A stretch of DNA of 64,000 bases, from the NCBI GenBank assembly GCA_030647125.1, contig JAUSKC010000014.1:1-64000 (forward strand), written 5' to 3'. Of this stretch, positions 43,300 through 62,576 are shown piece by piece. The notes under the pieces are model-generated. The model was not told the origin of the DNA, did no database searches, and worked only from the letters and a program-made list of their open reading frames with translations. Source of the DNA: Nanobdellota archaeon (GTDB lineage Archaea; Nanobdellota; Nanobdellia; Pacearchaeales; GW2011-AR1). Each line of letters begins with the position of its first letter. The stretch's first letter is position 1. Made by a program: the position numbers and the translations under genes.

Positions 43300-44205
43300 C
43301 TATAAAAGAGTTTCTAATTCAATTTCTTTTTTTGTTAGGAAATATCTTTTTAAGCCATTTACACAATCCTCATATGAAAATCTGTTAAATTCATTTTCAT
43401 TTCCTGCTATAATATTCCCTGAAAACTCTGAACTACTCCAACTTTTATCAAAATAATCTCTACCTATGGAAACTAAAAAACCATGACGTCCTCCAGACAG
43501 ATCATGGGGGACTTTTCCATTTATATATTTGTTTCCATATTTTTCCCCAAGTTTTTGGAGAAAATTTAACAATTTATCTGTATCTTTTTTATTAAATATC
43601 AAATGCGCAAACGGGAAATCAGGCATATAACTAACAGTAGGATCATTTAATGTTGGGCAGACTTCTGCGGCATTAAATCCGTAGCTCTCATTAGTAATCT
43701 CGAATCCTTTTTTAAAATTCGTAAGGTGCCAGTGATCATGAAGAGGAATAGTTGCGCCCAAACCCGGCTGATTATGACATAACTCTAAACCAGTTTCGTC
43801 GGAAAAGGGCAATAGCCTTTCTAAATCTTTTTTTAAATTAGAAAGGTCGCTTGTAGAGTAAGATACTCTTTCTGGAGAGGGTACAGCTAATGAAAAACCA
43901 GGAAATATGGGGTATTTATTTATTATAACTATCATATCTCCAAGATTAGTTCCGTTGGATAGATTTAATCTTACATCCTCATTAGCTTTTTCAACATCGC
44001 GACACAGTTTACAATAATTCCCATTTATATCTGAAGGTCTGTTAAAGCGTTTTTCATTTAAAATAACTCCAAATTTATAACTTGAATCTTTACTTCTTAC
44101 AATTTTTACTTTTATATCTGAAGGAGTAATTACTCCTAAAAGCGCGGCGGCTTGGGCCCATCTTTCTAATATTGATTGATTTAAATCTAAGCAATTTTTA
44201 TTCAT
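43300..44205 (-). CDS. HIT-superfamily sugar-nucleotide phosphorylase/transferase-like protein
   Basis: HNQPGLGATIPLHDHWHLT (HxHxH), CKLC near N-terminus, KYPIFPGFSLAVPSPE. Confidence 0.75.
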   Translation of the reverse strand: MNKNCLDLNQSILERWAQAAALLGVITPSDIKVKIVRSKDSSYKFGVILNEKRFNRPSDINGNYCKLCRDVEKANEDVRLNLSNGTNLGDMIVIINKYPIFPGFSLAVPSPERVSYSTSDLSNLKKDLERLLPFSDETGLELCHNQPGLGATIPLHDHWHLTNFKKGFEITNESYGFNAAEVCPTLNDPTVSYMPDFPFAHLIFNKKDTDKLLNFLQKLGEKYGNKYINGKVPHDLSGGRHGFLVSIGRDYFDKSWSSSEFSGNIIAGNENEFNRFSYEDCVNGLKRYFLTKKEIELETLL

Positions 44206-45101
44206 AAAATTGTCTCCAGATTTTTAAGACCCCTATAAACCTCATCAATAGGAACTGCTGATTGCGCTTCTGGAACATTCTGCCTATTAAATATATATTT
44301 ATCAATTAAAGGGCTGATAATTTTTTTCATTCTGCCGTAATCATAAATTTCGTTTGGAGGGGTACAATTAAAAATTGTTACAAGTTTCTTCTTTAATCCA
44401 AGAGCTAAATGCATTCCTAAAGTATCCCCACAAACAATTAATTCACAGCCGTTGATATCATCAATATGTTCTTTTATAGTTAGTTTCATTCCCAATGAGA
44501 TTACTTCATAACCATCTGTTTGGAGTTTTTCTTTTAATTCGGGATATCCGGCCCAATATTTATTTGGCCATTTGCTTTCTGTAACATCAATTAATCCAAT
44601 GGTTCCACGAACTTGTTCTTCCGACAATGGATTAATTCCAAGATTATATTCTTGTCCGGACCACATGCGGCCAAGCATTTCAATCCATATTTGAGGAACT
44701 GACTTTTTATTTTGTGATTTAATTTTATCCGCTTCGTCTTTTGAAAACCGCCTACTTATGAAAGACATATCAAGCCAGTAATCGCATTCTGAAGTGTAAT
44801 CAACTTTGTCATTGCCGTCGAGAAAATGACCTATAAGTTTTCTTGTTTTTATTTCCTTAAGAAATTCAAGTGGCGCGCGCTCTTCATCCAAACTTAAAAT
44901 TAAATCAAATTCATTTTGTTTCAATAATTCCTTATCATATTCATTTTCAAAAATGTAGACCTGCTTTATCTTTTTAGAGTTTAAAATGTCCTTGGCGGCT
45001 TTGCTTGTTAACCAATGAACCTCACCTTCCAGTTCTGAAAGAAGAACTGTCGTTCGGACGACGTCCCCCAAGGCCCCTAATTTTGAAATTAATGTTTTCA
45101 T
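44202..45101 (-). CDS. GT9 (heptosyltransferase-like)
   Basis: SKLGALGDVVRTTVLLSEL; CGDTLGMHLALGL. Confidence 0.88.
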   Translation of the reverse strand: MKTLISKLGALGDVVRTTVLLSELEGEVHWLTSKAAKDILNSKKIKQVYIFENEYDKELLKQNEFDLILSLDEERAPLEFLKEIKTRKLIGHFLDGNDKVDYTSECDYWLDMSFISRRFSKDEADKIKSQNKKSVPQIWIEMLGRMWSGQEYNLGINPLSEEQVRGTIGLIDVTESKWPNKYWAGYPELKEKLQTDGYEVISLGMKLTIKEHIDDINGCELIVCGDTLGMHLALGLKKKLVTIFNCTPPNEIYDYGRMKKIISPLIDKYIFNRQNVPEAQSAVPIDEVYRGLKNLETIL

Positions 45102-45988
45102 TTTGTGCTTTTAGGTGTTTTCCATGCATCAGTATGAAATTTCTTTGCAAATTTAACATGATAGAATGAAAGTCCCCATATGTAAAGTTTTACAGGAAAT
45201 AAAATGAAAGTCCATATAATTTCTTGGAAATTTTTTGGGTAAAGGAAAGCACGGTAAGATTCAAATAATTCATTTTTGAAGGTCTTTGTTTTTGGATAAT
45301 CTTTTAAATTAATATATTTAGACATTTGTGTGTGTGCTTTTGTTGTTCTTTTTTTCTGATCAATAAAATCGTGAAGATTCTTTGGGTAGGAAACGTAAAC
45401 AATTGCCTTTGGAGCATATCCAATCTTGTAACCCTTTTTCATAAAATAAAAAGGCACTATTGCATCTTCAGGAACATCTAAAGGAAAGTTTTTTACAACG
45501 TGATTTCTGAAAGCCCATAAATATCCAGAACATTCTAAGAACTGTCCTTTCTTGAAACGTTTCAAACGAGCTTGGTGCGCTCCAGCATCACATAAAAGAT
45601 GAGACCAATAACCCAACATTGTCTTACGCGAATCACTAGAGACAACACGCCCAGACGCACATCCGATTTTGGGATCATTAAATAAATCAACCAAATATTT
45701 TATGGAATTTTCTTTTACAAAAATATCTCCATCGGAAAGAACTAAAATATCTCCTTTGACTTTGCTAAATAATAAATTAAGAGCAAACATTTTCCCTTTT
45801 CCAGGATCTTGGAAGGTCTTTATTATTTTATTTTTCTTAGCATAACTTTTGGCAACATCCAAAGTTTCTTTATCAGGAGCAGAGACAATTATTTCATATT
45901 TTTCCTTTAGATCTTGATTTAGGAAGCCCTCAATTGCTTTTCCGATTGTTTTTGGCTCTTTAAATGAGGTTATTATAACGGATATCAT
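45098..45988 (-). CDS. GT2 glycosyltransferase
   Basis: SVIITSFKEPKTIGKAIEG; DILVLSDGDIFV. Confidence 0.93.
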   Translation of the reverse strand: MISVIITSFKEPKTIGKAIEGFLNQDLKEKYEIIVSAPDKETLDVAKSYAKKNKIIKTFQDPGKGKMFALNLLFSKVKGDILVLSDGDIFVKENSIKYLVDLFNDPKIGCASGRVVSSDSRKTMLGYWSHLLCDAGAHQARLKRFKKGQFLECSGYLWAFRNHVVKNFPLDVPEDAIVPFYFMKKGYKIGYAPKAIVYVSYPKNLHDFIDQKKRTTKAHTQMSKYINLKDYPKTKTFKNELFESYRAFLYPKNFQEIIWTFILFPVKLYIWGLSFYHVKFAKKFHTDAWKTPKSTK

Positions 45989-47137
45989 TTATTTATGGTC
46001 TAATAAGCTTTTATAAAGATTTAGTGTCCTCTTAGAAATTATATCCCAATTGTATTTCTTTGATTTTTCAATATTATTCTTAGAGATCTTTTTTCTTAAG
46101 TTTGTATTCTCAAGAAGTTCAATTATTCTTTTCTTGTACTTTTCATTTTCTCCGTAATCAATCAAAAACCCGTTTTCTGGTTCTGACATTTCGTAAGGGA
46201 CGCCATTTACTGGAGAGGCAACTATAGGAAGACCGGAAGCCATTGCTTCAAATAAAGTTAAAGGCAAACCTTCCCTATATGAAGGAAGAACAAAAACGTC
46301 GGCGGATTGGTACATGCTTGCAATTTCTTTCCTGTCACGCGTTTCGTTCATTAAGATAATTCTTTTCTCTTTTCCGATTAATTTTTTCACGGTCTCACGC
46401 ATTCCTTCGTCTGGGCCACGAATTACAAAAGTTACATCTTTCTTATCCTTTAATATCAATTTTGCTATTTCAACAAATTTGTCTGGGCCTTTTGTAACGT
46501 TCAACCTGCCAAAATAAAGGACTAATCTTCCATTAATTTTGTTTTTTCTTTTGAAATTGTTTGGACTTATTTTATTGAAAAAGATTTCTGCCATTCCATT
46601 AGGGATTACTTCTATTTTTTCTTTAGAACCGCCATACTTCTTTATGAAATCAATTTCCCAGGGGGTTATTGCAATTATTTTGTTTGTTAATTTTAAAGCA
46701 AGTCGTGAAAATATATTATAACTTATTAAGATTCCGAGACGGCCTGTAAAGGAACGATAAGCATCAGACCAAGGACAATGAGTTGTATGAACATGAGGAA
46801 TCTTTTTTATTTTAGCGGCAAATGCAGCCAAAACGAAATGAACATGGCCAAAAACATGTGAATGAATTATGTCAAAGTCATTTTTTAAAAGTTTATTAAA
46901 AACTGAAGGGAAAATAACAGCAAAATTTGCAATTTGAAGAAGATATTTGCAACGATGCACGTAAACGCCTTCAATAATTTCCTCAAGTACTGGAATATGG
47001 CCTTTTTTGTCCCAGTCGGACGTGAAGACGTGAACTTCATGGCCTTCTTTAACTTGCCTCTCGGCTAATTCGCGAACAACTTGACCTACTCCCCCAATTG
47101 TCGGAAAATACTCTGACGAAACGTGGGCGATTTTCAT
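45989..47137 (-). CDS. GT4 glycosyltransferase
   Basis: FPTIGGVGQVVRELAERQ; VLPSYREGLPLTLFEAMASGLPIV. Confidence 0.96.
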   Translation of the reverse strand: MKIAHVSSEYFPTIGGVGQVVRELAERQVKEGHEVHVFTSDWDKKGHIPVLEEIIEGVYVHRCKYLLQIANFAVIFPSVFNKLLKNDFDIIHSHVFGHVHFVLAAFAAKIKKIPHVHTTHCPWSDAYRSFTGRLGILISYNIFSRLALKLTNKIIAITPWEIDFIKKYGGSKEKIEVIPNGMAEIFFNKISPNNFKRKNKINGRLVLYFGRLNVTKGPDKFVEIAKLILKDKKDVTFVIRGPDEGMRETVKKLIGKEKRIILMNETRDRKEIASMYQSADVFVLPSYREGLPLTLFEAMASGLPIVASPVNGVPYEMSEPENGFLIDYGENEKYKKRIIELLENTNLRKKISKNNIEKSKKYNWDIISKRTLNLYKSLLDHK

Positions 47138-47168
47138 TTAATTAAGGGAAAATGGAAGTTTATATAGA

Positions 47169-48179
47169 TTATTTTAGTAAAGATAAATAACTTTTTATCA
47201 TCTTTTTTTCGTCAAAATTCTTTAGGGCTGCCTTTCTTGAATTATTCCCAAAGGTCTTATTATTTATGAGTTTATTCACAATTTCCAAATTAATTTCAGA
47301 CGTAACGACCCCGCAATTATTTTCTTCTACAAAATCAGAAAGGCCCATTAAATCCTCGCATATAATTGCGCAACCGGACGCCATTGCTTCAACTGCGCTT
47401 AAAGGCATATCGGGACGATCAGAATAAAGTAACGGCATAATCTTTCCTTGGGATGCAACTTTTGAAAGTTCTTTTTCAGACAAAGGCCTTGAAATTACTT
47501 TTACATTCTTAAGTTTTAATTTTAATATTTCTTCTGAAGATTTTTCGCTTCGACTGACAATTACTGCACTGAACTTTTTATTTTGCTTTAGGAAGGCCAA
47601 AATCTTATCTATTCCCCTCAAATTAAAGTCCTTTGGATTGTATGGTACACTAAGAATTACAAAATCGACATTTTTGTTTTTTGATGGCTTGAAAAGATCC
47701 AAATCAACTCCAGGATAAATTAGTTTTATTTTACTTGCCTCAAATTTAACTTCCATAAATTCTTTCATTTTTTCACTTTGGCAGATTATTATATCACAGT
47801 GTTTTAATGAAGAATAATTTTTATCATAGCCAGATATTATTGTAAAATATATTTTAAATTTCAATAACTTTAGATAGTTTAGAATAAAATCATGGTAAAA
47901 ATTATTTACTGTCCAAAACATAAGGATTTTATCATAGCCCTTAAGACGAAAGTAAATAAAATAAAAAGGCAGTAAAATTGACTGGATAATAAGGCGGAAA
48001 AATCTTATTGAAGTTACTCTTGGAACAACACTTACTTCAGAGTCATCAATTGGCTTAACATTTTGTATTGAAAGAACTTTAGAATCGGGAAGATTCTTTG
48101 ATAATTTTCTTACTGTTTTTGAAGCCAATTCTGTTGGGGAGTTATGCAAATCGGTGCCGAAAAATAACACTTTATTCAT
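47169..48179 (-). CDS. GT4 glycosyltransferase (start reassigned from 48239)
   Basis: MNKVLFFGTDLHNSPTELASKT; MPLSAVEAMASGCAIICED. Confidence 0.9.
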   Translation of the reverse strand: MNKVLFFGTDLHNSPTELASKTVRKLSKNLPDSKVLSIQNVKPIDDSEVSVVPRVTSIRFFRLIIQSILLPFYFIYFRLKGYDKILMFWTVNNFYHDFILNYLKLLKFKIYFTIISGYDKNYSSLKHCDIIICQSEKMKEFMEVKFEASKIKLIYPGVDLDLFKPSKNKNVDFVILSVPYNPKDFNLRGIDKILAFLKQNKKFSAVIVSRSEKSSEEILKLKLKNVKVISRPLSEKELSKVASQGKIMPLLYSDRPDMPLSAVEAMASGCAIICEDLMGLSDFVEENNCGVVTSEINLEIVNKLINNKTFGNNSRKAALKNFDEKKMIKSYLSLLK

Positions 48180-48251
48180 TACTTTCCTAAAAATCTTAGT
48201 TATTAAAACCTTATGGGATAAGCTTAAAAAAGTTGCCAAGCAACTTATTTT

Positions 48252-49121
48252 ATGGAAAACTCTCTTGAAAGATTATTTAGTAATTTTAATAAAAACAAAA
48301 TTGATTTTTGCATTTTAAGAAAATATCAGGAATTGCCAAAGAAGACAATAGGAGATGTCGACATTCTTATCAATAAAGAAGATTTTACAGAGGCCTTAAA
48401 AATTGTAAACAAAGAAGATTTTGTTTTTTATCCTTATACCGAACCGCATTATTTCTTCTTTAAACATGATATTGAACTTGGATTGATTACTCTTGATATA
48501 ACAAAAGGGAAGATGCTGTCAAAAGAGAAATTAAGGAATTTTTACATCCCAAAAGATGGACAAGACATAAGAATAAAGAAAGGAATATTACAAAAGTTAA
48601 GAACAAATTTAAGACGAAAGCTACATTATTTGTTTAACGGGAAGTTAATTTGTTTTATAGGACCTGATGGAAGTGGAAAAAGTACTTATGCGCGAAAAGT
48701 TTTACATGAATTAGAAAGTTACCCTTTGAAAAAGGAACTTATTTATTTTGGAACAAGAAGTAATAGTAAAATTATTCGCGTATTTGATTTAATATATAAA
48801 ATCTGTAAAGTTTACTTAAATAAATTCTTAGGTAGAATAACTTTAACTGACAGGTATATCTATTTAACATTTAGAAAAAGACCATTCTTAAATAATTTAA
48901 TAAGAATTTTGGTGCCAAAACCTAACAAAATTTATCTGCTTGAAGCAAAACCAGAAACAATAAGAAAAAGAAAAAAGGAATTAAGTGTTGAAGAGATAAA
49001 AGAATTATATGAACACTATTCCAAGATTAATAGAGTTATTAAGGTAAATAATGAAGACAAATTAGACAAGAATATTAATGGAATAGTTAATGAAATACTA
49101 TTGCTATATAATAAAGAATAA
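48252..49121 (+). CDS. Nucleotidyltransferase-like domain fused to P-loop (thymidylate-kinase-like) domain
   Basis: KKTIGDVDILINKEDF; FIGPDGSGKSTYARKV; LTDRYIY. Confidence 0.8.
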   Translation: MENSLERLFSNFNKNKIDFCILRKYQELPKKTIGDVDILINKEDFTEALKIVNKEDFVFYPYTEPHYFFFKHDIELGLITLDITKGKMLSKEKLRNFYIPKDGQDIRIKKGILQKLRTNLRRKLHYLFNGKLICFIGPDGSGKSTYARKVLHELESYPLKKELIYFGTRSNSKIIRVFDLIYKICKVYLNKFLGRITLTDRYIYLTFRKRPFLNNLIRILVPKPNKIYLLEAKPETIRKRKKELSVEEIKELYEHYSKINRVIKVNNEDKLDKNINGIVNEILLLYNKE

Positions 49122-49147: not shown

Positions 49148-49219
49148 GCTGCTGTAGTTTAATTAAAACACTTGCTTAGTTTGCAAGAGATGTTGGTGAA
49201 AACCCTTCCGGTGGCTCCA
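49148..49219 (+). ncRNA. Noncanonical tRNA-like RNA (AGT anticodon position, CCA encoded)
   Basis: GCTGCTG-TA-GTTT-AATTA-AAAC-A-CTTGC-TTAGTTT-GCAAG-AGAT-GTTGG-TGAAAAC-CCTTC-CGGTGGC-T-CCA: standard 72-nt class-I geometry, U8, A14, A21, A26, U33, T54, A58 kept; G18G19 and T55C56 absent. Confidence 0.65.
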
Positions 49220-49239
49220 ATACAAACATTAAAATCCAA

Positions 49240-49893
49240 ATGAAAGATATAAACGCAACGATAATAATAACTTTGAAAGGTAAGAGTGAGGATGAACTTT
49301 ACAAAGCAGTCGAATATTCTAGAAGAAAGAATATACAAAAAGCGATAAGAAGTGGGATAACTTACGAGCAAAAGCACAATACAGAAATTCTAAAGAAATG
49401 TTACGAGATAAATTCCAAAGTTTTGATTGAAGGTGGAACGCACCCTAAGAAATATGAGGAGTGGTTGAAATTTATTGAGCCGGACAAAAATCCTTTTTTT
49501 GTCGTTAAATTTAAAGATAAAATTATAGGATGCTTTGCCATAAAAGAGATAACGCGCAAGTTTTACGGAGAGGATTCTGATGAAAGGGGAATAAGGCCGA
49601 CAATTTTTGCAAATGAAAAAGAATACAACGATTACAGGCCAAATGATTTAATGTATTGGGCAACGATACTTTATGGATTGAAGAATAATTACAATTTTGT
49701 TGATCTTGGTGGATGGCAAATAAACCCTCGCGGACATCTTGTTGGAGTAAACAGCTTCAAGGAAAAATGGGGTGGAGAAGTTTTTTATTATTATTCTGAC
49801 TATCCAATTTTAAGAGCATTAGGGAGAAAATTAATAAGAAAATCAAATTTGTTATGGAAGTTGAATGCTAAAGTTAAGAAGAAAGTTAATTAA
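49240..49893 (+). CDS. FemAB-like (aminoacyl-tRNA-dependent / GNAT-fold) transferase, short form
   Basis: YSRRKNIQKAIRSGITYEQ; DLGGWQINPRGHLVGVNSFKEKWGGEV. Confidence 0.8.
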   Translation: MKDINATIIITLKGKSEDELYKAVEYSRRKNIQKAIRSGITYEQKHNTEILKKCYEINSKVLIEGGTHPKKYEEWLKFIEPDKNPFFVVKFKDKIIGCFAIKEITRKFYGEDSDERGIRPTIFANEKEYNDYRPNDLMYWATILYGLKNNYNFVDLGGWQINPRGHLVGVNSFKEKWGGEVFYYYSDYPILRALGRKLIRKSNLLWKLNAKVKKKVN

Positions 49894-50997: not shown

Positions 50998-51960
50998 ATG
51001 AAACCAAAGAAGATATTAGTAATAAAGAACGACCATATAGGAGATATGATTCTTACAACAGGAGTTTTTAGAGAGTTAAAGAAAGAATATCCCAAAGCTA
51101 AGATAACTGTTGTAGCTTCTAATGCAAATAAAATAATGGTTGAAAACAATCCGTATGTTGATGAAGTAATAGTCTCTGACCATGGCAAAAAGTTTCTCAA
51201 TAACTGGAAGAAATATCCTGAACTAAAAAAGAAAATAAAAGACGAGAAATTTGATATTGCTATTGACTTGCGGGGGGACTTTTTGAACATATTTTTCTTA
51301 ATGTATTTAACTGGAATAAAAAAAAGAATTGGATTCTATAAAAGCAACTGGTCAAAGATGCTCTTGAATTTTGGGAAAAAAAGGGATATAGAAAAACATG
51401 AAATAAAAAATATGTTTGATATTGTGAATGAAGGGCTTGGGATAAAAAGGAAGAACATAAAACCAGAAATTTTCGTCAGTGAGAAAGACAAAAAAGAATT
51501 GGCGGATTATATTGAAAAGAATAAGTTAGATAAATTTGTATGTGTCTGCCCTGATGCAAGCCATCCACTTCGGCTTTTGCCTTTGGAAGAATTTGACAAA
51601 ATTATAAAATATATAAAAGAAAATTATCCACAATACAAAATATTAGTAATTGGAGTAAGTGACAGAGTTGACAAGCTTGTGCAAGACAATCCAGGAACAA
51701 TATCATTAAAATTTGCAAATCTTAAAATGCTTTATTTGTTATTCCAAAAGAGTGCAGTTGTATTCAGTTTAGACACTGGGACTACACCATTGTCATGGGC
51801 GGGAAATTCTAATTTAATAAATATCTTGCTAAAATTTAGTGTTTCTTATAGAGAGCATTTAAAACCATTGGGCAAAAATGCGATTGTTGTCTGGGAAAAA
51901 GACGAACCGCTTAAAGCAGAAGACATAATTAAAGAATTGCCAAGATTTTTGCAAAAGTAA
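50998..51960 (+). CDS. GT9 (heptosyltransferase-like)
   Basis: ILVIKNDHIGDMILTTGVFRELKKEYP; FSLDTGTTPLSWAG. Confidence 0.92.
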   Translation: MKPKKILVIKNDHIGDMILTTGVFRELKKEYPKAKITVVASNANKIMVENNPYVDEVIVSDHGKKFLNNWKKYPELKKKIKDEKFDIAIDLRGDFLNIFFLMYLTGIKKRIGFYKSNWSKMLLNFGKKRDIEKHEIKNMFDIVNEGLGIKRKNIKPEIFVSEKDKKELADYIEKNKLDKFVCVCPDASHPLRLLPLEEFDKIIKYIKENYPQYKILVIGVSDRVDKLVQDNPGTISLKFANLKMLYLLFQKSAVVFSLDTGTTPLSWAGNSNLINILLKFSVSYREHLKPLGKNAIVVWEKDEPLKAEDIIKELPRFLQK

Positions 51961-52002
51961 TATCACAGAAAACTTAATAAATAGCTTCTATAAACCTCTT
52001 TT

Positions 52003-52395
52003 ATGGAAATGCCTTTATCAGAGCTAATTGACAAGTTAAGTATTGTAAAACTTAAAATAGAAAGAGTAGGCGAACCACAATTGCAAAAAGAGTATGAAGC
52101 ATATTTAAAAGCAATTGAAGAATTTGAAAAAAAAGGAGTAATAATAAAAAAGATTTGGGTGGAAGAATTGTATAGTATAAACAAGCAATGTTGGGATTTA
52201 GAGTGGGATGCACGAAAGATAACAGCTTCGGCAAACATATGGGAAGAAGCAGAAAAATTTGGCTTGGCAGAACTTGGAAGAAGGGCCTTAATAATAGGGG
52301 ACTTAATGAAAAAAAGAGCGGATGTTAAAAGTGAAATTGCACGCGAAAGTAAAATTGGTTTTGAAGATAAAAAAATAAATCACGTTGGAAATTAA
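52003..52395 (+). CDS. Small helical glycan-locus protein (DUF6165-like), paralogue of 57727-58095
   Basis: MPLSELIDKLSIVKLKIERV; INKQCWDLEWDAR; similar to 57727 ORF. Confidence 0.65.
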   Translation: MEMPLSELIDKLSIVKLKIERVGEPQLQKEYEAYLKAIEEFEKKGVIIKKIWVEELYSINKQCWDLEWDARKITASANIWEEAEKFGLAELGRRALIIGDLMKKRADVKSEIARESKIGFEDKKINHVGN

Positions 52396-52401
52396 AATTA
52401 A

Positions 52402-54768
52402 CTAAATTTCTTTTGTTTTTATTTCTCCGTGCTCAAAATAAACTACTTCTGGATAAGGTAAAGGGAAGATAAATCTTCCTCCTTGAATTAAAAATTCTTT
52501 TTCACGTTCAATAAATCCTGATTTGAAATGCCAAGGTAAAACAAGATAATAATGGGGATGGGCTTTTCGCGAGTCCTCCTCTGAAATTATAGGTATATCA
52601 GTTCCGGGAGTTTTTTTACCCCATTTAAACTCATTTCTTTCTGCTGCTGCCTCACAAATGTTTTTATCAATTCCTAGATATTGAATTAAGACATTTCCTT
52701 TGGTTGAAGCGCCGTATAAATGAATTTTCTTATGATTAAGTTTTTCTGTTATCAAGAAATCTTTTAATTTTATTTTTATAACTTCTACACGTTTTACAAA
52801 TTCTGAATATGGCTTACGGGTATGAAGTTCTAGACCTTTTTCATAATCCCTTACTTTTTGCACGTTAGTATTAACAGCCCTATTGTTTGAATTATGACAA
52901 ATATAAAGACGAAAACTTCCCCCATTGACATCATTAAAGGCAATATCAAAAACCTTTAATCCAACTTTAGAAAGCATCCATTCAATTTGCTTTAAAGCAT
53001 AATATTCTAAATGTTCTTGACAAATTGTATCAAAAGAATTTATTTCAAGCATTTGAGGCATATAACTTTGTTCAGAAATCCAAATTCCATCTTGGTGTAA
53101 AACTTCCTTAACTTGTTTAACAAATTCCAAAGGTTCATCAAGATCATAAAACATTGCTATTGAAGTAACAATCTTTGCTTTCCTATTTGGATGAATTGAT
53201 TTAAATTTATCAGAACTAAAGAAATCAACTACTAATTTTATATCTTCGGGATAGTAATTCAAGTATTTTTTGCTTGTAGGGTCTATTCCAACTTTCTGGA
53301 GCTTTGGGTTTTTATACGCCTTAAGCAAAACACCGTCGCTGCTTCCAATATCAAGGGCTACATCTCCTTCATTTATTTCAACAAGTTTTTCGGCGGTGCC
53401 GGCTAGCTCAGTTAAATGATTTACCATTGAATTATTTAAACCAGAACGATAACCATAAGTATCTCCATACATTTCTTTTAAGTCAGCCGTATGTTTCAAT
53501 TGAACCAATCCGCATGCTAGCGGATCTTCAGAATCATCACACTTTATCAATTCTAATGGAACTTTCATGGGCTCTTCTTCAATTACAGAAGGAAATCTGC
53601 CAGACAAATACTGATTTCCTAAATTCATAAGAGAAATCAAATTTCTGTTTCCACATATGCGGCATTTATCTATAGTTCTTATTTTGAACGACTCTTCATT
53701 AAATCCTTTTTGTTTTAAATATAACTCCCTTTCACCTAACATTAAATCATGCTCAGCCATTATTCTTACTAATTCTTTGAATCTAACTTTTGCTTCCCAA
53801 CCCAATTCATGTTTTATCTTTGAAGGATCAGCCAATAAAATATCAACTTCTGCTGGACGGAAGTAAAGAGGATTTATGTCGATGACAACATTTCCTTTTT
53901 CATCAAAATATTTTTCATTTATGCCAGACATTCCATTGGATTTTATATTCAATCCAAGAACTCGTGCTGTCTCTTCCAAAAATTCCCTTACAGTATGTTT
54001 TTCTCCAGTTCCTACAACATAATCGGACGGGTTTTCTTGCTGAAGCATTAACCACATTGCCTCAACATATTCTTTTGCATAACCCCAATCCCTTTCTGCA
54101 TCTAGATTTCCTAAAGATAGCTTTTTCTGCAGACCTAATTTAATTCTTGCAAGAGAAATAGTTATTTTTCTTGTAACAAATGACTCGCCGCGCCTTTCTG
54201 ACTCATGGTTAAATAAAATTCCATTGCAAGCAAAGATTCCGTATGCCTCTCGCGCTCCAATTGTTTCCCAGTAAGCAAAAATCTTTGCACGCGCGTACGG
54301 ACTTCTAGGATAAAAAGGAGTTTTTTCATTTTGAGGGGTCTCAACAACTTTTCCAAACATCTCGGAAGAACTTGCTTGATAAAATCTTGCTTTGGGGCAG
54401 AATTTTCTCATTGCTTCCAAAATTCTTAAAGTTCCGAGAGCAACAATGTTTGAAGTACTTTCTGGGATATCAAAACTAATTCTAACATGGCTTTGAGCTC
54501 CAAGATTATAAATTTCATCAGGTTGAACGCTGCGTATAATTTCTTCAATTGATGAAGAGTCAGTCAAGTCGCCATAATGTAAATAGAAATTTTTTTTAGG
54601 AGTGTCTGAAGTATAAGTTCCTTCTTCTTGGATATGAATTATTCTTTCTCTATTAAAAGTGCTTGTTCTTCTTATTACGCCGTGAACTTCATAGCCCTTC
54701 GATAATAAAAAGTCCGCCAAATAAGAACCATCCTGTCCAGTAATCCCAGTAATTATTGCCCTTTTCAT
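52402..54768 (-). CDS. gmd: Fusion: GDP-mannose 4,6-dehydratase + sugar C-methyltransferase
   Basis: [81 protein letters not shown]. Confidence 0.93.
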
Positions 54769-54819
54769 AAAAATCCTTCGTAAAAAATAGTTTATAAAAA
54801 TATATGTAAAATTTGGTAA

Positions 54820-55791
54820 TTAATTATCCCTAGATACATAAGGTAATTCTCTTTCAATATCAAAACCTTGGTGAGCAAGATAGAGTGCTAGGGTTGCTTC
54901 CCCATCAGGTACAAAGAAATTTGTACTTCCTTTTGGAGGGGATTTTAATCTTAATGAATCTAATTCTCTTGAACCTCTTGTAGTATACTGAGGAAATGAA
55001 AAACCATCTTGATTGTTTCTTAAAAAAGCAGGCAGATTATCTATATTTACCGCACCAATAATGTTGTGTTCTTCTACCCCTTCTCCTTTCATTCTTCTTT
55101 CAATTTCATCATAAGTTATTCCCAATTTAGTATGGAATGAAATAACAGGATGATAAGTTTGTAAACTTCTAACTAAACCCATAACCTTCACAGAATCTAT
55201 CTCTCCTTCTTTAACGAGCAACTCTTCATAGACCTCTTTTCTCATTTCTCCAAAGAAATCTACTTTTCCGTCTTTTGGAATGTCTGCGCTTCCAGCAATA
55301 ACGTGCCAGCAATTTGGATAATGAAAAGTTTTTTCTCCTCTAAGACCAAAAACAATTTTTCCATCAGCTGTTTCAACTGCAGAATTTAATCCAAACATAC
55401 TTGAGAAAAAAGCATAAGGATCATTAAATCTTTCAATTCCTCTTTGAACAAGTTTTTCTCTATAATCTGGATCTTTACTCGCCTGAATATTTGTCCCGTG
55501 AAACTCTCTAAAACTTGTTACACCAATAACTAATTCTAATTTCCCATTTCCATTCGAAACATATTGATTAAGGCCCAGTTTTGGACGAGATTGAGGAATA
55601 CCTTTTCCTTTAGCAGTAAGTTCATTAACTAATTCAGACCAAGTTTGTTCTATGTGGGAATCTAAGTCCCAATCTGCAATTGTTCTTTTCATAGTTGGCG
55701 CACCTTCAGTGATTAAGACTTCTTCTTCAGAATACATTTTACTAGGGAAAGATGAAGGATCAACTATCCGAAAATTTTGAGTTTTGTACAT
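54820..55791 (-). CDS. Nudix-like hydrolase
   Basis: GSADIPKDGKVDFFGEMRKEVYEELLV Nudix-box-like. Confidence 0.65.
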   Translation of the reverse strand: MYKTQNFRIVDPSSFPSKMYSEEEVLITEGAPTMKRTIADWDLDSHIEQTWSELVNELTAKGKGIPQSRPKLGLNQYVSNGNGKLELVIGVTSFREFHGTNIQASKDPDYREKLVQRGIERFNDPYAFFSSMFGLNSAVETADGKIVFGLRGEKTFHYPNCWHVIAGSADIPKDGKVDFFGEMRKEVYEELLVKEGEIDSVKVMGLVRSLQTYHPVISFHTKLGITYDEIERRMKGEGVEEHNIIGAVNIDNLPAFLRNNQDGFSFPQYTTRGSRELDSLRLKSPPKGSTNFFVPDGEATLALYLAHQGFDIERELPYVSRDN

Positions 55792-55835
55792 GAATTCAGA
55801 ATAAATAAGTGATTTAAAAAGATTGTTGTTTTAAA

Positions 55836-56687
55836 TTAACTCCTTATAAGATTAGAAATTTCTCTTGCTATCTTCTTATTCGGCGCAGAAATAATTGGTC
55901 TTAAAATTCCATCTTGTCCAAAGTTAAAGAAAGATTCTTCACCAATACTTCTTTGATCAATTGTAAAAATATCTCCTCCAGATTCCTTAACTAAACCATA
56001 AGTGCCCGCCATTTCAAGATTTCCTTTTCTTGTAAAAGTTATTACTGCACTAACTTCGCCAGAAGCTAATTCTGAATGATAGGCCACGTAAGACCTTGCA
56101 TCTTGAACATTGAACTTTTTAAGTTTTCCAAAAAGTTTATCTTTAGGATCACTCTGTTCGTCAAAATATCTGTCAAGATAAATTTTAGATCCTTTTTTTA
56201 ATTTCTGTCCATTAGAACATTTGATTCTTTTATGTCCACTTTCAGGCAAAAAGACAAAACTACCCTCACCTTTTATAGCATAAAATATCCTGCCGGTAGA
56301 AAAATCAATAAGGCCACTAAATAAATATTCTTTATATTTTGGATTAGTGTTTGAGAAAATTCCTAGAATTGGCCCATATTTTGCATTTTTATCTTCTCCA
56401 TTCCTTGAAGCAAGATATCTATTTGTGCCATCTAATCCATCAATAACCCCTAATAATATTGGATTAAGACTAAGATCTAGTTCACCATGTTCTTCTGTTA
56501 CTAATTTTAATGGCAATCCTGAATTTCTAAGTGAATTTATAATTATCTCTTCAGAGGCAATATCTGCTTCTAATGCAACTTCACCATATCTATTTTTTCT
56601 CTTCCTTTTTTCTCCTGCTTTACCAAGTAATTGATGATGTTTGTAAGCTTCTAAAAAAGCATTAATTGCGATTTCTTCTAATGTCAT
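55836..56687 (-). CDS. Inositol monophosphatase family protein
   Basis: KLVTEEHGELD; LGVIDGLDGTNRY. Confidence 0.85.
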   Translation of the reverse strand: MTLEEIAINAFLEAYKHHQLLGKAGEKRKRKNRYGEVALEADIASEEIIINSLRNSGLPLKLVTEEHGELDLSLNPILLGVIDGLDGTNRYLASRNGEDKNAKYGPILGIFSNTNPKYKEYLFSGLIDFSTGRIFYAIKGEGSFVFLPESGHKRIKCSNGQKLKKGSKIYLDRYFDEQSDPKDKLFGKLKKFNVQDARSYVAYHSELASGEVSAVITFTRKGNLEMAGTYGLVKESGGDIFTIDQRSIGEESFFNFGQDGILRPIISAPNKKIAREISNLIRS

Positions 56688-57655
56688 AGTAAATCAAACT
56701 CAACCATTTCTTTGATAATTTCAGGGAATGAATACTTTGGTTTCCAACCGATGCTTTTTAATTTAGAATTATTTCCTTTTATTACTCTGTCGTCCGGGCG
56801 GAAAAACTCAGGATTTACTTCAACAAGAAGTTTTCCGTTTTTATCATAGCCCTTTTCATTCACTCCTTCTCCTTTCCAAGATATATTCATGCCTGAATAC
56901 TTAAACGCATTTTCTACAAATTCTCTTACTGTATGGCCTTCACCAAGGGAAATCACATAATCAGAGGAACTTGGTTGTTGCATTATTTGATATATTGCAT
57001 TAGCAGTATCTTTTGCGTGAATCCAATCCCTTTGTGAATTTAAATTTCCTAAAGCTAATTTATCCAACTCTCCTCTTTTTATTCTTACGGCGCTGTTTGT
57101 TATTTTCCGTGTTACAAATGCCGTGCTTCTTTTTGACGACTCTGAATTAAAAATTATTCCATTACAAGCAAAAAGGCCTTGCATCTCCCTGCAATATTTT
57201 ATAAATTGAAACGCAGCCAACTTTGCAATTGCATAAGGATTTTTTGGATCGAAAGGGGTATTTTCATCAACAACCCCAGACATATTTCCATAAAATTCGG
57301 CGGAGCCGGCTTGAAAAACTTTTATTCTTGGATTTAATTTTTTGGCAACTTCGCAAATTTTTATTACTGGAAGCAAATTTACTTTCATAGTATATTCTGG
57401 TTCATTAATTGAAATTCGCGCATTTGACAAAGCAGCAAGATTGTAAATTTCATCTGGGAACGACTCGCTTATTGCCTTCTCCAAAGAACTTAAGTCCTCT
57501 AAGTCGCCAAACAAAGGTTCTACTCTATCAACTAATCCCTCTTCTTTGCCTTTTCTTACAAACCCAAAAACATTATACCCTTTTTCAAGAAGTATTTCAG
57601 AGAGATAACTCCCTATTTGTCCGTTCGCGCCTGTTACTAATGCTGTCTTGGGCAT
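56684..57655 (-). CDS. gmd: GDP-mannose 4,6-dehydratase / NDP-sugar epimerase-dehydratase
   Basis: TGANGQIGSYLSEILLEKGYNVFGFVR; YAIAKLAAFQ. Confidence 0.93.
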   Translation of the reverse strand: MPKTALVTGANGQIGSYLSEILLEKGYNVFGFVRKGKEEGLVDRVEPLFGDLEDLSSLEKAISESFPDEIYNLAALSNARISINEPEYTMKVNLLPVIKICEVAKKLNPRIKVFQAGSAEFYGNMSGVVDENTPFDPKNPYAIAKLAAFQFIKYCREMQGLFACNGIIFNSESSKRSTAFVTRKITNSAVRIKRGELDKLALGNLNSQRDWIHAKDTANAIYQIMQQPSSSDYVISLGEGHTVREFVENAFKYSGMNISWKGEGVNEKGYDKNGKLLVEVNPEFFRPDDRVIKGNNSKLKSIGWKPKYSFPEIIKEMVEFDLL

Positions 57656-57726
57656 AAAAATAGGGTTTTTCCATTGTTTAAATAGATTTCTGCAAAAACT
57701 TTTAAAGGGATAAACTATGGAAATTT

Positions 57727-58095
57727 ATGGAAATTCCTTTGTCAGAATTAATAGATAGAATGACTGTTTTAAGGATAAAAATTCAGAATACTGAAAATCC
57801 CAATGTTAAAAAGGAGTTGGACTTAGTGGAAGGGGCATTAAAGAATTTTGAGGAAGAAAATAGTAAAATAGATGAAAATCTTATAGATAATTTACAAATA
57901 ATAAACAAAGAACTTTGGGATTTGGTTGCTGAATTAAGCGATGCCAAAAAAGAAAACAAAAGTTTAGAAGAAATTGGACGTATTTACATAAGGCAGCATA
58001 TAGCAAACAAAAAAAGAATTCAAATAAAAAATAAAATCGCGGAAGAAAGTGGTTCTGGGTTTAAAGATATTAAAGTTAATTCTAACTTCAGTTAA
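57727..58095 (+). CDS. Small helical glycan-locus protein (DUF6165-like)
   Basis: MEIPLSELIDRMTVLRIKIQ; INKELWDLVAEL; paralogue of 52003-52395. Confidence 0.65.
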   Translation: MEIPLSELIDRMTVLRIKIQNTENPNVKKELDLVEGALKNFEEENSKIDENLIDNLQIINKELWDLVAELSDAKKENKSLEEIGRIYIRQHIANKKRIQIKNKIAEESGSGFKDIKVNSNFS

Positions 58096-58096
58096 A

Positions 58097-58804
58097 ATGA
58101 GCAAAGAAAACTTTAACCCTACACTTAAAAGCTCTCTTAAGAAGAAAGGTTCCGTAAAATTCGCTTTGGATGGTATAAAATTAGTATTTGAATATATTTA
58201 TTACATTCTCTTTAAATGGAGAGAATTTAAATTAAACGACGCAACTTACAATTATTTTTATTATCCTTATAATGCTACATGGAGAAATGAAAGAGAAATT
58301 GAAGTTCCAATAGTTTGGAATGAAGTAAAAAAATGTGAACCAGAAAAGGTCTTGGAAATTGGGAATGTTTTATCTCATTATTTTAAGGTAAAACATGACA
58401 TTCTTGATAAATATGAAAAACTCCTAGGAATAATTAATGAAGATGCAACAAATTTCAAGACAGATAAAAGATATGATTTGATTGTAGCAATATCTACATT
58501 TGAACATGTTGGATGGGATGAAAATCCAAAAGAACCAACAAAGATAATAAAAACTATTGAAAATCTAAAGAAACTCTTATCTAAAGATGGAAAGATTATT
58601 TTTACAATCCCAGCAGACTATAATCCGGAACTTGATAAACTCATAAAAAATGGGAAAATAAAATTAAACGAATTATATTTTATGAAACGTATTTCAAAAG
58701 ATAACAAGTGGATTCAGATAGAAGAAAAAGACATAGAAGGAATAAAATTTGAGAAACCTTTTCCAAGAGCAAATGGATTAATTATTGGTTTGATTGGAAA
58801 ATGA
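58097..58804 (+). CDS. SAM-dependent methyltransferase-like protein (start reassigned from 58049)
   Basis: KVLEIGNVLSHYF; YDLIVAISTFEHVGWDENPKEP. Confidence 0.75.
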   Translation: MSKENFNPTLKSSLKKKGSVKFALDGIKLVFEYIYYILFKWREFKLNDATYNYFYYPYNATWRNEREIEVPIVWNEVKKCEPEKVLEIGNVLSHYFKVKHDILDKYEKLLGIINEDATNFKTDKRYDLIVAISTFEHVGWDENPKEPTKIIKTIENLKKLLSKDGKIIFTIPADYNPELDKLIKNGKIKLNELYFMKRISKDNKWIQIEEKDIEGIKFEKPFPRANGLIIGLIGK

Positions 58805-60349
58805 ATTTGACAATCTAGACCTTATAGTTTTTAAAATTAAAAGATCGTTTTTGTCAAGTGAACCCGTGATAATAATCATTATAAAGTAAATCAGTAAAAA
58901 TAGCAAGCCCAGTAAAATTAAAGAAAATAAATTTATTGGGATTAAACTTCTTAATAACAATAACACCCCACCAGCAACAAGGGCAGATAATAAAACCCCT
59001 AACATTTTACCCTTTAAAGGCAAAATATGTAGATAATGATATGTCTGAACAAAAGTCAAAATACTATAGATAGTATAAGCTATTGTCGTGGCTATTGCCG
59101 CTCCAATAATTCCTTCGGAATTATCTAGTGAAAATATAACTGGCTTTGGAATTAATACAAAATTTAGGACTGCATCTATAACAAGCGCAATTAAGATATT
59201 AACAAACCTTATTTTTGATTTCTTTATCATCCCAAGAAGATTCAAACCTATTTCTGACTGGGCATAAAAGAAAAATCCTATTGAAAGAATAGATAACGCA
59301 TAGCCCCCTGAAATAAATTTAGCCCCAAATAAGATATTTAACATTGCTTCAGGGAAGAAGATTGTAAAAAATAACAAAGGCAAGTTTAAGATAAATATCC
59401 ATTTTCCTACTTGTTTACTTAAGTCCTTTATTAAATTATGATTATTCTTTGAATACTCTTTGTTTATTATAGGGAAGAAAAGTTGGACAAACAAGAAAGA
59501 TGCAAGAGTTAAAGTCGTTGCAATAGGCAATGCAGAATCATAAATTCCTACGGCAGTTGTATTCTTCAAATAACCTAATGAAAATATATCAACCCAGCCA
59601 AGCAAAGAGGAGACGAATGCGGCGAACATTAAAGGGATTGAATAAGATAATAATTCTTTGTTGAGGCCCGCGTAATCTTTTGACTTATTAGTTGAATTTA
59701 TAAAATATTTAATTGCATATTTTCTGCACAAATAATATGAGCTAATTAATAATAATAAATAACCAATCACGACTGAAAATCCAATTGAAGAAGAATTAAA
59801 TCCTAAGAATATTAGGGCTACTAAAGCAATTACTCTTATTAATGGATTAAAGATATTAATTAATAAAGAATATTCTGAGACCTTTTCAAATGCTTTCATT
59901 GTCCCTAATAAAATCTGGGAAATTGCAAAAAGCGGCACAGTAATACTAAAAATTTGTAAGAATAAAGTTAAATTATCATTATGGAATATTCTTGTGGCAA
60001 TCTCTTCTGCAGAAAAATACATAATAGTTCCAAAAAAGATACTCAAAAGAACTGTTAACAATAATGCAAATGTAAAGACTTTCTTAATCTTTAAAAAGTC
60101 GTTTTTCCCTCGGTAAAATGAGATATAACGTATTACCCCTTCTCCAAGCCCTACAAGAGAAAAAACAACAAACCATCCTGAAACCATAAAAGAAATTGAA
60201 AATAATCCATAAGTATCCGGGCCAAAATGTCGTGCAATTATTACTCTGAAAACATAACTCAATAAACTGGAGAATATTAATCCTATTAACACAATTATAG
60301 AACTACGTGCCAAAAATTTCAAATTCTTATTAAGTTCTTCATTCTCCAT
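58778..60349 (-). CDS. Oligosaccharide flippase (MOP/Wzx-like)
   Basis: Multi-TM SYVFRVIIARHFGPDTYGLFSISFMVSGWFVVFSLVGLGEGVIRYIS. Confidence 0.93.
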   Translation of the reverse strand: MENEELNKNLKFLARSSIIVLIGLIFSSLLSYVFRVIIARHFGPDTYGLFSISFMVSGWFVVFSLVGLGEGVIRYISFYRGKNDFLKIKKVFTFALLLTVLLSIFFGTIMYFSAEEIATRIFHNDNLTLFLQIFSITVPLFAISQILLGTMKAFEKVSEYSLLINIFNPLIRVIALVALIFLGFNSSSIGFSVVIGYLLLLISSYYLCRKYAIKYFINSTNKSKDYAGLNKELLSYSIPLMFAAFVSSLLGWVDIFSLGYLKNTTAVGIYDSALPIATTLTLASFLFVQLFFPIINKEYSKNNHNLIKDLSKQVGKWIFILNLPLLFFTIFFPEAMLNILFGAKFISGGYALSILSIGFFFYAQSEIGLNLLGMIKKSKIRFVNILIALVIDAVLNFVLIPKPVIFSLDNSEGIIGAAIATTIAYTIYSILTFVQTYHYLHILPLKGKMLGVLLSALVAGGVLLLLRSLIPINLFSLILLGLLFLLIYFIMIIITGSLDKNDLLILKTIRSRLSNSFSNQTNN

Positions 60350-60373
60350 ACACTCAAGGAAGAAATTTAGTAT

Positions 60374-61108
60374 TTAACCTTTTTTAGTTTGGTTCTGTAC
60401 CACAATGAAAATGCTTACCCCAAAAGGAAAATTTAAAGATTTTAGGAGAACATTCTCAAAAAATAAAAGTTTTGTCAATAAGAAGTTTATTATCTTAGGG
60501 GTTTTAGCTAAATTGGCTTTTCTTGAATTTGGTTTTATCACTTTTTGTGTGAAACGTACCAAAGCTATTGGTACAAAAAGAAAGAAATTCCAGTAAGATA
60601 ATTTTACAATCTTCCAATCATAAAATAATTTTGAAAATGAGTTTTTATCATATCTTTGATAATGATGGTTTATCTCATCGTGACTGCTCCACAAAAAATT
60701 AAATGCGGGGCAGAAACAAATTAATAATCCACCATCTTTAAGCAATGACTTCCAATTTTTTACTGCTGCCTTTCTATCTTTTATATGTTCAAGCACGTCA
60801 GACGCAATAAGAACGTCAAATTTTTTATTAAGTTTTATCTTTTGTGCATCCATAAAAGAGCAAGGGATGTTCCTTTCTTTACATATTTTTACCGCATCCT
60901 TGCTTATATCAATACCAAATATATCCGAATAACCTTTTTTATTCAAATCGAAGATTAAATCCCCTCCTGAACATCCTATATCTAGAATTTTTGATTTTCT
61001 TGGTATTTTATAAATATCAAAGATCTTGGAAATCATATCACGTCTAGCAACAAACCACCAATGATCTTTTTCAAGAAGATGATACCTCGCTTCAAAAGAT
61101 TTATCCAT
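60374..61108 (-). CDS. Class I SAM-dependent methyltransferase
   Basis: KILDIGCSGGDLIFDLNKKGYSDIFGIDIS; IASDVLEHI. Confidence 0.92.
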   Translation of the reverse strand: MDKSFEARYHLLEKDHWWFVARRDMISKIFDIYKIPRKSKILDIGCSGGDLIFDLNKKGYSDIFGIDISKDAVKICKERNIPCSFMDAQKIKLNKKFDVLIASDVLEHIKDRKAAVKNWKSLLKDGGLLICFCPAFNFLWSSHDEINHHYQRYDKNSFSKLFYDWKIVKLSYWNFFLFVPIALVRFTQKVIKPNSRKANLAKTPKIINFLLTKLLFFENVLLKSLNFPFGVSIFIVVQNQTKKG

Positions 61109-62576
61109 TTATCTTTCTCCAAACATAAAGTTCTTCATATTTATTATACAATTCAAAATTGGAATATCTAAAATCATCCCCAAAAGTTATTGCATAATTC
61201 ATATCATTTAAATTTTCATGCAAATTATTTCCGTTAATCCCTCCCCCAAACCATATTAAACGTCTTTCATTTATATTTGGGATTGGTTCAAATTTCTTGG
61301 ATAATATTCTTGAATCGTTCTCCAAGAATAATTGATAGTCTTGTATGCTTATGAACTCATTAATTTCATTACCCCAGTAAATATGAGCTAATTTCCGGTA
61401 ATCGTCATCTAAGTTGCCTACAATGAATGACTCATTCTTAAAATCAAGTGCGATTTTGTCCAAATCAGAAGAAATAATAGATTCTTGGCTAATTGATGAA
61501 AAGGCGATATTTTTAGGATCTTGAAGAACAAAAGTTATATCCCTTCCGTCAAGGGTGTTGAAAGAATAGTAGAATTGCATTAAATAAGGGGATATAAAAA
61601 TTAAAGAGATTACTAAAGAAAATATAATTTGTTTTTTTATTCTTTTTTCATCAATGTATTTTAAACTTGTTAACAAAAGTATAGGGAAGATAGAGAATAC
61701 GTATCTTACTTGAGGATTTATTAAAATTAATAAAAGGCATAAAGTTAGGAATATGATTGTTTTTTTGTTTTGCTTTAAATTCTCAAGATAGTAATTCTTC
61801 CAGTAGTACAAAGGTATAGAGATTAAGATTAACAATAACAATATTATTTTGTTAAATAATCCCCCAGAATAGGACGTGCCTCGGCCAAATAATAAGGCAT
61901 TCGCTAAAGTACCAAGAAAACTCTTCATGATGCTGAAAAATGCAAAATTAAAAAGATACTGATCAAGTAAAAGCCTCGGCATAATCCCCACAAAGATGGC
62001 TAAGAACAACAAGATAAAGTGGCTGAATTTCTTATTATACATAAATACAAAAGCCATAAACAGCCCAAAGAAGATAATTGTGTCCCAAAAGATATAAGAC
62101 AACCCTAAAGAAATTCCGGCAAAGGATAAACAATACAGATCGTTATTCATATCATATTTTTTTATAAAAAACCAAGCCCATAAAAGGAAAAAAGATGAAA
62201 TTATTATAGGAGTAATCCAAGGAGAGATATACCAAACAGCCGGTGCAACTAATGACAATAAGACAACCCTCTTATCTTTGCCGCTTATAAAATACATTGA
62301 CAAAATAATTAAAAATATAAAGATTAAATTTACAATTTTAAAAGCAAAATAATTATTTAGTAAGCCAACTAAAGGGGATATAATAAATCCGTAAAGATAA
62401 GAGTGTGAGCTTCTTATTCCTGCGTTATAATCTCCTGAAAAGTATTTCGCAACATCAGAATAGTCCCCTATGTCTGTGTATCCATAAAATGAAGTAAAAA
62501 TTGTTACAATTGCCAATAAAATCGAGAGTAAAATGGCTGCATTCTTATAAGTTAAGTTAAATTTCCACTCTTTCAT
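61101..62576 (-). CDS. Multi-TM glycan-locus membrane protein (putative glycosyltransferase)
   Basis: 491 aa, many TM helices, soluble C-terminal domain. Confidence 0.55.
   Translation of the reverse strand: MKEWKFNLTYKNAAILLSILLAIVTIFTSFYGYTDIGDYSDVAKYFSGDYNAGIRSSHSYLYGFIISPLVGLLNNYFAFKIVNLIFIFLIILSMYFISGKDKRVVLLSLVAPAVWYISPWITPIIISSFFLLWAWFFIKKYDMNNDLYCLSFAGISLGLSYIFWDTIIFFGLFMAFVFMYNKKFSHFILLFLAIFVGIMPRLLLDQYLFNFAFFSIMKSFLGTLANALLFGRGTSYSGGLFNKIILLLLILISIPLYYWKNYYLENLKQNKKTIIFLTLCLLLILINPQVRYVFSIFPILLLTSLKYIDEKRIKKQIIFSLVISLIFISPYLMQFYYSFNTLDGRDITFVLQDPKNIAFSSISQESIISSDLDKIALDFKNESFIVGNLDDDYRKLAHIYWGNEINEFISIQDYQLFLENDSRILSKKFEPIPNINERRLIWFGGGINGNNLHENLNDMNYAITFGDDFRYSNFELYNKYEELYVWRKING

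Follow-up and report, generated by a model that had tools for sequence, protein, structure and literature searches.

Does a tRNA-like gene that has lost the usual elbow bases, and that lies just ahead of a gene for a FemAB-type transferase, serve that transferase rather than the ribosome? The question arises from a window of 64,000 nt (the whole stretch of DNA analysed) from a Nanobdellota archaeon (Pacearchaeales, GW2011-AR1; GCA_030647125.1, contig JAUSKC010000014.1, positions 1-64,000, forward strand). The host genome (G000) is 89% complete; relatives carry G numbers and loci L numbers. The features of the window are:

43300-48239 (-): glycosyltransferase genes of a polysaccharide cluster
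48252-49121 (+): upstream co-directional ORF, 289 aa, with weak nucleotidyltransferase/P-loop kinase matches, all below curated cut-offs
49105-49112 (+): possible TATA box, TATATAAT, 43 nt upstream of the tRNA-like gene; a consensus match only
49148-49219 (+): elbow-less tRNA-like gene, 72 nt, tRNA-Thr-derived as judged by a parse against 21 tRNA-Thr genes; Rfam RF00005, 37.3 bits
49148-49154 (+): 5' strand of the acceptor stem, GCTGCTG, paired with CGGTGGC at 49209-49215; G1-C72 and C2-G71 kept, U3.G70
49161-49165 (+): D-loop AATTA, without G18G19
49176-49182 (+): anticodon loop TTAGTTT, with TT in place of the A37A38 that all 21 compared tRNA-Thr have
49178-49180 (+): anticodon AGU
49192-49208 (+): T arm GTTGG-TGAAAAC-CCTTC; U.U at 50-64 and 51-63, T55C56 replaced by GA
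49217-49219 (+): encoded CCA
49240-49893 (+): putative single-domain FemAB/GNAT-type transferase, 217 aa; PF02388, 33.7 bits, with PDB profile and fold matches
50998-62576 (.): rest of the cluster, with GT9, GDP-mannose dehydratases and a Wzx-like Polysacc_synt protein

A spare tRNA-Thr with an altered elbow

The element has the geometry of a class I tRNA with an encoded CCA, and the structural statements of an earlier note on this DNA all hold when it is parsed against 21 tRNA-Thr genes from the class of the host. It contains a 7-bp acceptor stem with wobbles at U3.G70, G4.U69 and U6.G67, U8, a 4-bp D stem, a 5-bp anticodon stem, the variable loop AGAT, and U73. A covariance-model check of the kind proposed in that note also came out in its favour, since RF00005 accepts the element above its gathering cut-off of 29 bits (E = 3e-4 for the window with all families, 7e-7 for the genome with the tRNA model alone); ARAGORN, run on the window, does not report it. 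The minimum free energy is unremarkable by itself (z -0.53), and the signal beyond chance is tRNA homology, not folding energy.

Relative to the 21 tRNA-Thr, the element retains G1-C72, C2-G71, U8, U33, G35, U36, U54, A58, U73 and 19 of 21 helix pairs, and has lost G18G19, U55, C56 and also A37A38, both otherwise invariant. Both sides of the elbow are thus altered together, as had been claimed, and the element departs from a canonical elongator, which has G18G19, a T54T55C56 plus A58 elbow and a purine at 37. The anticodon loop reads A34 G35 U36 U37 U38. Positions 34 and 37 had both been called odd; U37 does replace an invariant A37, but A34 is also present in the host tRNA-Leu(AAG). Such A34 tRNA-Leu(AAG) genes, unusual for archaea, occur at L025 (G000), L189 (G387) and L261 (G050). 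The two U.U mismatches singled out in the T stem are likewise both there, but U50.U64 recurs in L136 and L141, tRNA-Thr of the class that are ordinary in other respects, and only U51.U63 is therefore unusual.

A covariance model made from the element alone (R1) was scanned over 190 related genomes, and its ten best non-self matches are all tRNA-Thr, including the host tRNA-Thr(CGT). Judged by these matches and by structure, tRNA-Thr is the closest relative of the element and the class from which it is derived. Going by the elements through which ThrRS recognizes tRNA-Thr, the kept G1-C72, C2-G71, G35, U36 and U73 are identity bases; the Thr identity, at first suggested by the anticodon, is thereby supported. 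The host has a partial ThrRS match at a contig end, and its ordinary Thr tRNAs (CGT, TGT, GGT) form the full normal set. Thus, the element is redundant for decoding and can be regarded as a spare copy.

CCA is not encoded in the other host tRNA genes, as far as their 3' flanks were read. The best non-self R1 match, L085, does encode it and has a D-arm almost identical to that of the element; it was rejected as a homologue because its contig is phage-like and carries an integrase. On this contig (G041:C11, L085/L114), probably foreign to its bin, a phage-type integrase ORF sits beside the tRNA-Thr(CGT).

The transferase gene and its surroundings

The ORF following the element begins with an ATG at 49240, 20 nt past the CCA, as the earlier note had it, and its PF02388 score lies above the curated cut-off of 24 bits. 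It is the only PF02388 gene found in the host genome. A profile built from ten homologues and compared with the PDB matches Sbb17, an aminoacyl-tRNA-dependent peptide synthase, and FemX; the predicted model matches the folds of FemX, MprF/PGS and Sbb17, although an AlphaFold pLDDT of 50 makes this supporting evidence only. By profile and predicted fold, then, the best matches of the protein are aminoacyl-tRNA-dependent transferases. Residues F173-K174, nearly invariant among homologues and aligned with the FK of Sbb17, would occupy the place of the catalytic Phe-Lys of FemX (K305) and DhpH-C (K329), a position deduced from the alignment. With the FemABX/GNAT-fold transferases (FemX, VlmA, DhpH, PacB, Sbb17) the host protein shares a profile and fold match to their C-terminal GNAT domain, the Phe-Lys motif and a basic C-terminal helix. 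However, known aminoacyl-tRNA GNAT transferases carry two GNAT domains (PMC12945691) with the acceptor site in between, whereas the host protein, at 217 aa, has one, aligns just to residues 147-306 of Sbb17, and lacks the first.

The 289-aa ORF stops 26 nt short of the tRNA-like gene. Since glycosyltransferases, GDP-mannose dehydratases and a Wzx-like protein surround femAB, a surface polysaccharide is its likely context. One ORF of the cluster (window 52402-54768, 788 aa) fuses a GDP-mannose 4,6-dehydratase with a methyltransferase-like domain. FemAB relatives recur next to CDP-alcohol phosphatidyltransferase genes (L179 9304-14083, L174 3-1965, L175 4666-5953), a hint that the acceptor may be a lipid or a phospho-glycan.

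Relatives with and without the tRNA

The closest FemAB homologue, with 53% identity, belongs to another genus (G387). Here the order on one strand is tRNA, a 1-kb radical-SAM/SPASM gene, femAB and an FkbM methyltransferase gene, and the tRNA, 1.1 kb upstream of femAB, is an extra tRNA-Thr(UGU). It has the D-loop AAGTGTA (U18), the T-loop TTCACGC (C58), a C30.U40 mismatch in the anticodon stem, and U38; because it retains A37, T55 and C56, its damage is milder than that of the window element. The ordinary Thr tRNAs TGT, GGT and CGT are present besides (986 kb read of about 1.0 Mb), which makes this fourth tRNA-Thr a spare as well.

When the 74 tRNA genes of G000 and G387 were put through a simple elbow screen, 6 were flagged for the D- or T-loop, and 3 on both sides. 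One of these 3, the host tRNA-Thr(TGT) (L002 1501-1572), has A19/U56 for G19/C56, an apparent compensatory swap (A19-U56). The other 2 are the femAB-linked genes, so that uncompensated damage on both sides of the elbow is seen in only 2 of the 74, both linked to femAB. The two elements have GCUGC and U3.G70 in common, and a tree of 60 columns groups them with support of 83/79, apart from the other Thr tRNAs of their hosts. Both branches are long and long-branch attraction is possible; common descent is thus likely, but not secure.

With 42 tRNAs in 986 kb, a given gene has a chance of roughly 2-3% that some tRNA gene lies on its strand no more than 1.2 kb upstream. If the tRNA must be a particular one, the chance is about 0.06%, and over the dozen single-domain loci examined it would, by rough inference, be below 1%; the adjacency in the window, being post hoc, was left out of this estimate.

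The earlier note had asked for the same RNA beside FemAB-like genes of related genomes, and such a pair is present in G387 and absent from most relatives. In G079, whose FemAB (51%) falls in the same sub-clade, no tRNA-like match lies within 18 kb of femAB, and nine further single-domain relatives (G050, G011, G031, G068, G121, G127, G116, G073, G206) have no tRNA beside femAB by either the Rfam tRNA model or the single-sequence model, the two also used for G079. About 0.7 Mb of G050, whose femAB lies at a contig end, contains no degenerate Thr copy. L160 (G013) was rejected as a second pair, its upstream tRNA being an ordinary tRNA-Cys; the FemAB-like gene right behind it (L160 777-1836) has an in-frame TGA near its start, and a stop is likewise present in the FemAB-like matches of G001 and G034.

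Scans with R1 in sets of 190, 383 and 380 genomes listed ordinary tRNA-Thr, a few tRNAs of other kinds and nothing else. The G387 element was not listed by them and was found by reading the surroundings of femAB; the genome-wide negatives are therefore weak. No credible blastn match to the element was found among 190 relatives, phages and plasmids, and viral contigs searched for FemAB and for the D-arm pattern yielded neither.

The two elements also differ in their upstream sequence. In ordinary tRNA genes of G000 and G387 a TATA-like word often starts at -31/-32. At this distance the window element has only background and no TATA box; the G387 element is preceded by TATATAAA at -32, the usual box position of other tRNA genes, a word added to the promoter scan only after the G387 sequence had been seen.

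Another upstream feature is seen at several tRNA genes of the host (L001, L010, L016, L020, L024, L026, L083). Just upstream of each lies a leader of 45-75 nt whose start repeats the first 14-23 nt of the tRNA itself and which forms a hairpin mimic. Leader cores are common to Gln and Asp, and to Thr and Met, and the leader of the G387 Thr-TGT (L199) also starts GCCTCTA. An exact-match screen of about 50 tRNAs at other loci found no such self-copy leaders.

Readings of the pair

The reading most likely to be right, chiefly because of the recurrence in a second genus, is that the window element, a spare paralogue of tRNA-Thr, no longer takes part in translation and is kept as a dedicated donor of threonine to FemAB; the probability of this reading is put at roughly 55%. 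The reading is drawn from the sequences of two genomes. Of the aminoacyl-tRNA system proposed in the earlier note, the Thr ancestry, the redundancy, the FemAB likeness and the recurrence speak in its favour; the many relatives without the tRNA, the single GNAT domain and the non-canonical promoter speak against it. In such a system the RNA would be made with or near femAB, and ThrRS would charge it through the kept G1-C72, C2-G71, G35, U36 and U73. Loss of the elbow and of A37, together with the weak 51-63 pair, may then prevent Thr-tRNA from engaging EF1A and the ribosome, and FemAB, by means of the conserved Phe-Lys and the basic helix at its C-terminus, would move the threonine onto an amine or similar group, presumably of a surface glycan or lipid precursor.

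Alternatively, the element may be a relic, an extra tRNA-Thr that was duplicated or horizontally acquired, inserted in the cluster by chance and is now decaying, while FemAB, if it depends on tRNA at all, uses ordinary aminoacyl-tRNA. This is rather unlikely. It would fit the lack of a tRNA beside most FemAB relatives, the missing canonical promoter, the encoded CCA unlike host tRNAs, the near-identical D-arm on the phage-like contig binned with G041, and the fact that ordinary tRNAs, such as the tRNA-Cys of G013, also sit directly upstream of FemAB-like genes. It does not readily explain why the only other elbow-damaged, redundant tRNA-Thr should belong to the femAB gene run of G387, the source of the closest homologue. 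The helices also argue against it, as their differences from those of each reference tRNA-Thr are compensatory; at the rate of the conserved unpaired sites, 12.4 of 21 stem pairs would be expected where 19 are kept (p 0.015 with each changed base counted). When adjacent changes count as single events, however, p rises to 0.12-0.18 and uniform decay is not rejected. A simulation of helix retention relative to reference tRNA-Thr rejects neutrality, and carries little weight because some changes may predate the loss of the elbow. Decay, which the earlier note had named among the cases against the pair, is thus only disfavoured.

The position of the element, 20 nt ahead of the start codon, on the same strand and without a tRNA promoter of its own, would also suit a tRNA-like fold that acts within the femAB transcript, either as a processing site for RNase P/Z or as a decoy that senses Thr-tRNA or ThrRS and controls femAB. 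This is improbable, since in G387 the radical-SAM gene intervenes and a TATA-like box precedes the tRNA itself, and since the encoded CCA and kept Thr identity bases point to charging. The chance that the ribosome still uses the element for ACU codons is slight. The anticodon AGU and the second A34 tRNA of the genome would fit this use; U37 in place of the invariant A37, the lost elbow and the redundant Thr set count against it, and a PF00383 deaminase, sought as the source of inosine-34, has no match in the host genome at its 89% completeness.

The dedicated-donor reading has a parallel in Staphylococcus aureus, in which three tRNA-Gly have UU/CU for GG18-19 and weak T-stem pairs (PMC4052509), and in which non-proteinogenic tRNA-Gly isoacceptors are described together with FemXAB (Giannouli 2009, in the summary given by PMC4052509). 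In both cases a redundant isoacceptor for one amino acid has the GG of its D-loop replaced (by UU here) and a weakened T stem, and FemAB-type transferases are served there and adjoin here. Unlike the tRNA-Gly, the element, known from its sequence, is for Thr, belongs to an archaeon without peptidoglycan, is linked to femAB, and has further lost A37 and T-stem pairing. A low score and an extra copy liken it to prokaryotic tRNA gene fragments and pseudogenes (PMC9897764), from which it differs in its full length, intact helices and lack of an adjoining mobile element. Threonine is present on N-glycans of Methanococcus (ManNAcA6Thr), for which the attaching enzyme was unidentified in 2010 (PMC2952790). 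Threonine on an archaeal surface glycan is what the dedicated-donor reading would share with that case. We know of no link between this Methanococcus threonine and a FemAB-type enzyme or special tRNA, nor, to our knowledge, is there an earlier dedicated non-ribosomal tRNA in Archaea.

The pair suggests, without proving, that in archaea, too, some charged tRNA is drawn away from protein synthesis and used to modify a surface molecule. That DPANN of this family have inherited a tRNA-Thr which evades the ribosome, and that its sole role is to supply a one-domain FemAB for the threonylation of a surface glycan or lipid, is a tentative extension, judged to fall somewhat short of even odds. If true, dedicated non-ribosomal tRNAs would have arisen outside the peptidoglycan bacteria, for a different amino acid, in very small genomes and in physical linkage to the enzyme, and there would be one route by which threonine reaches archaeal surface glycans. 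The elements would then also provide a natural series, from mild to strong elbow damage, for the tRNA features needed by ThrRS, EF1A and FemAB.
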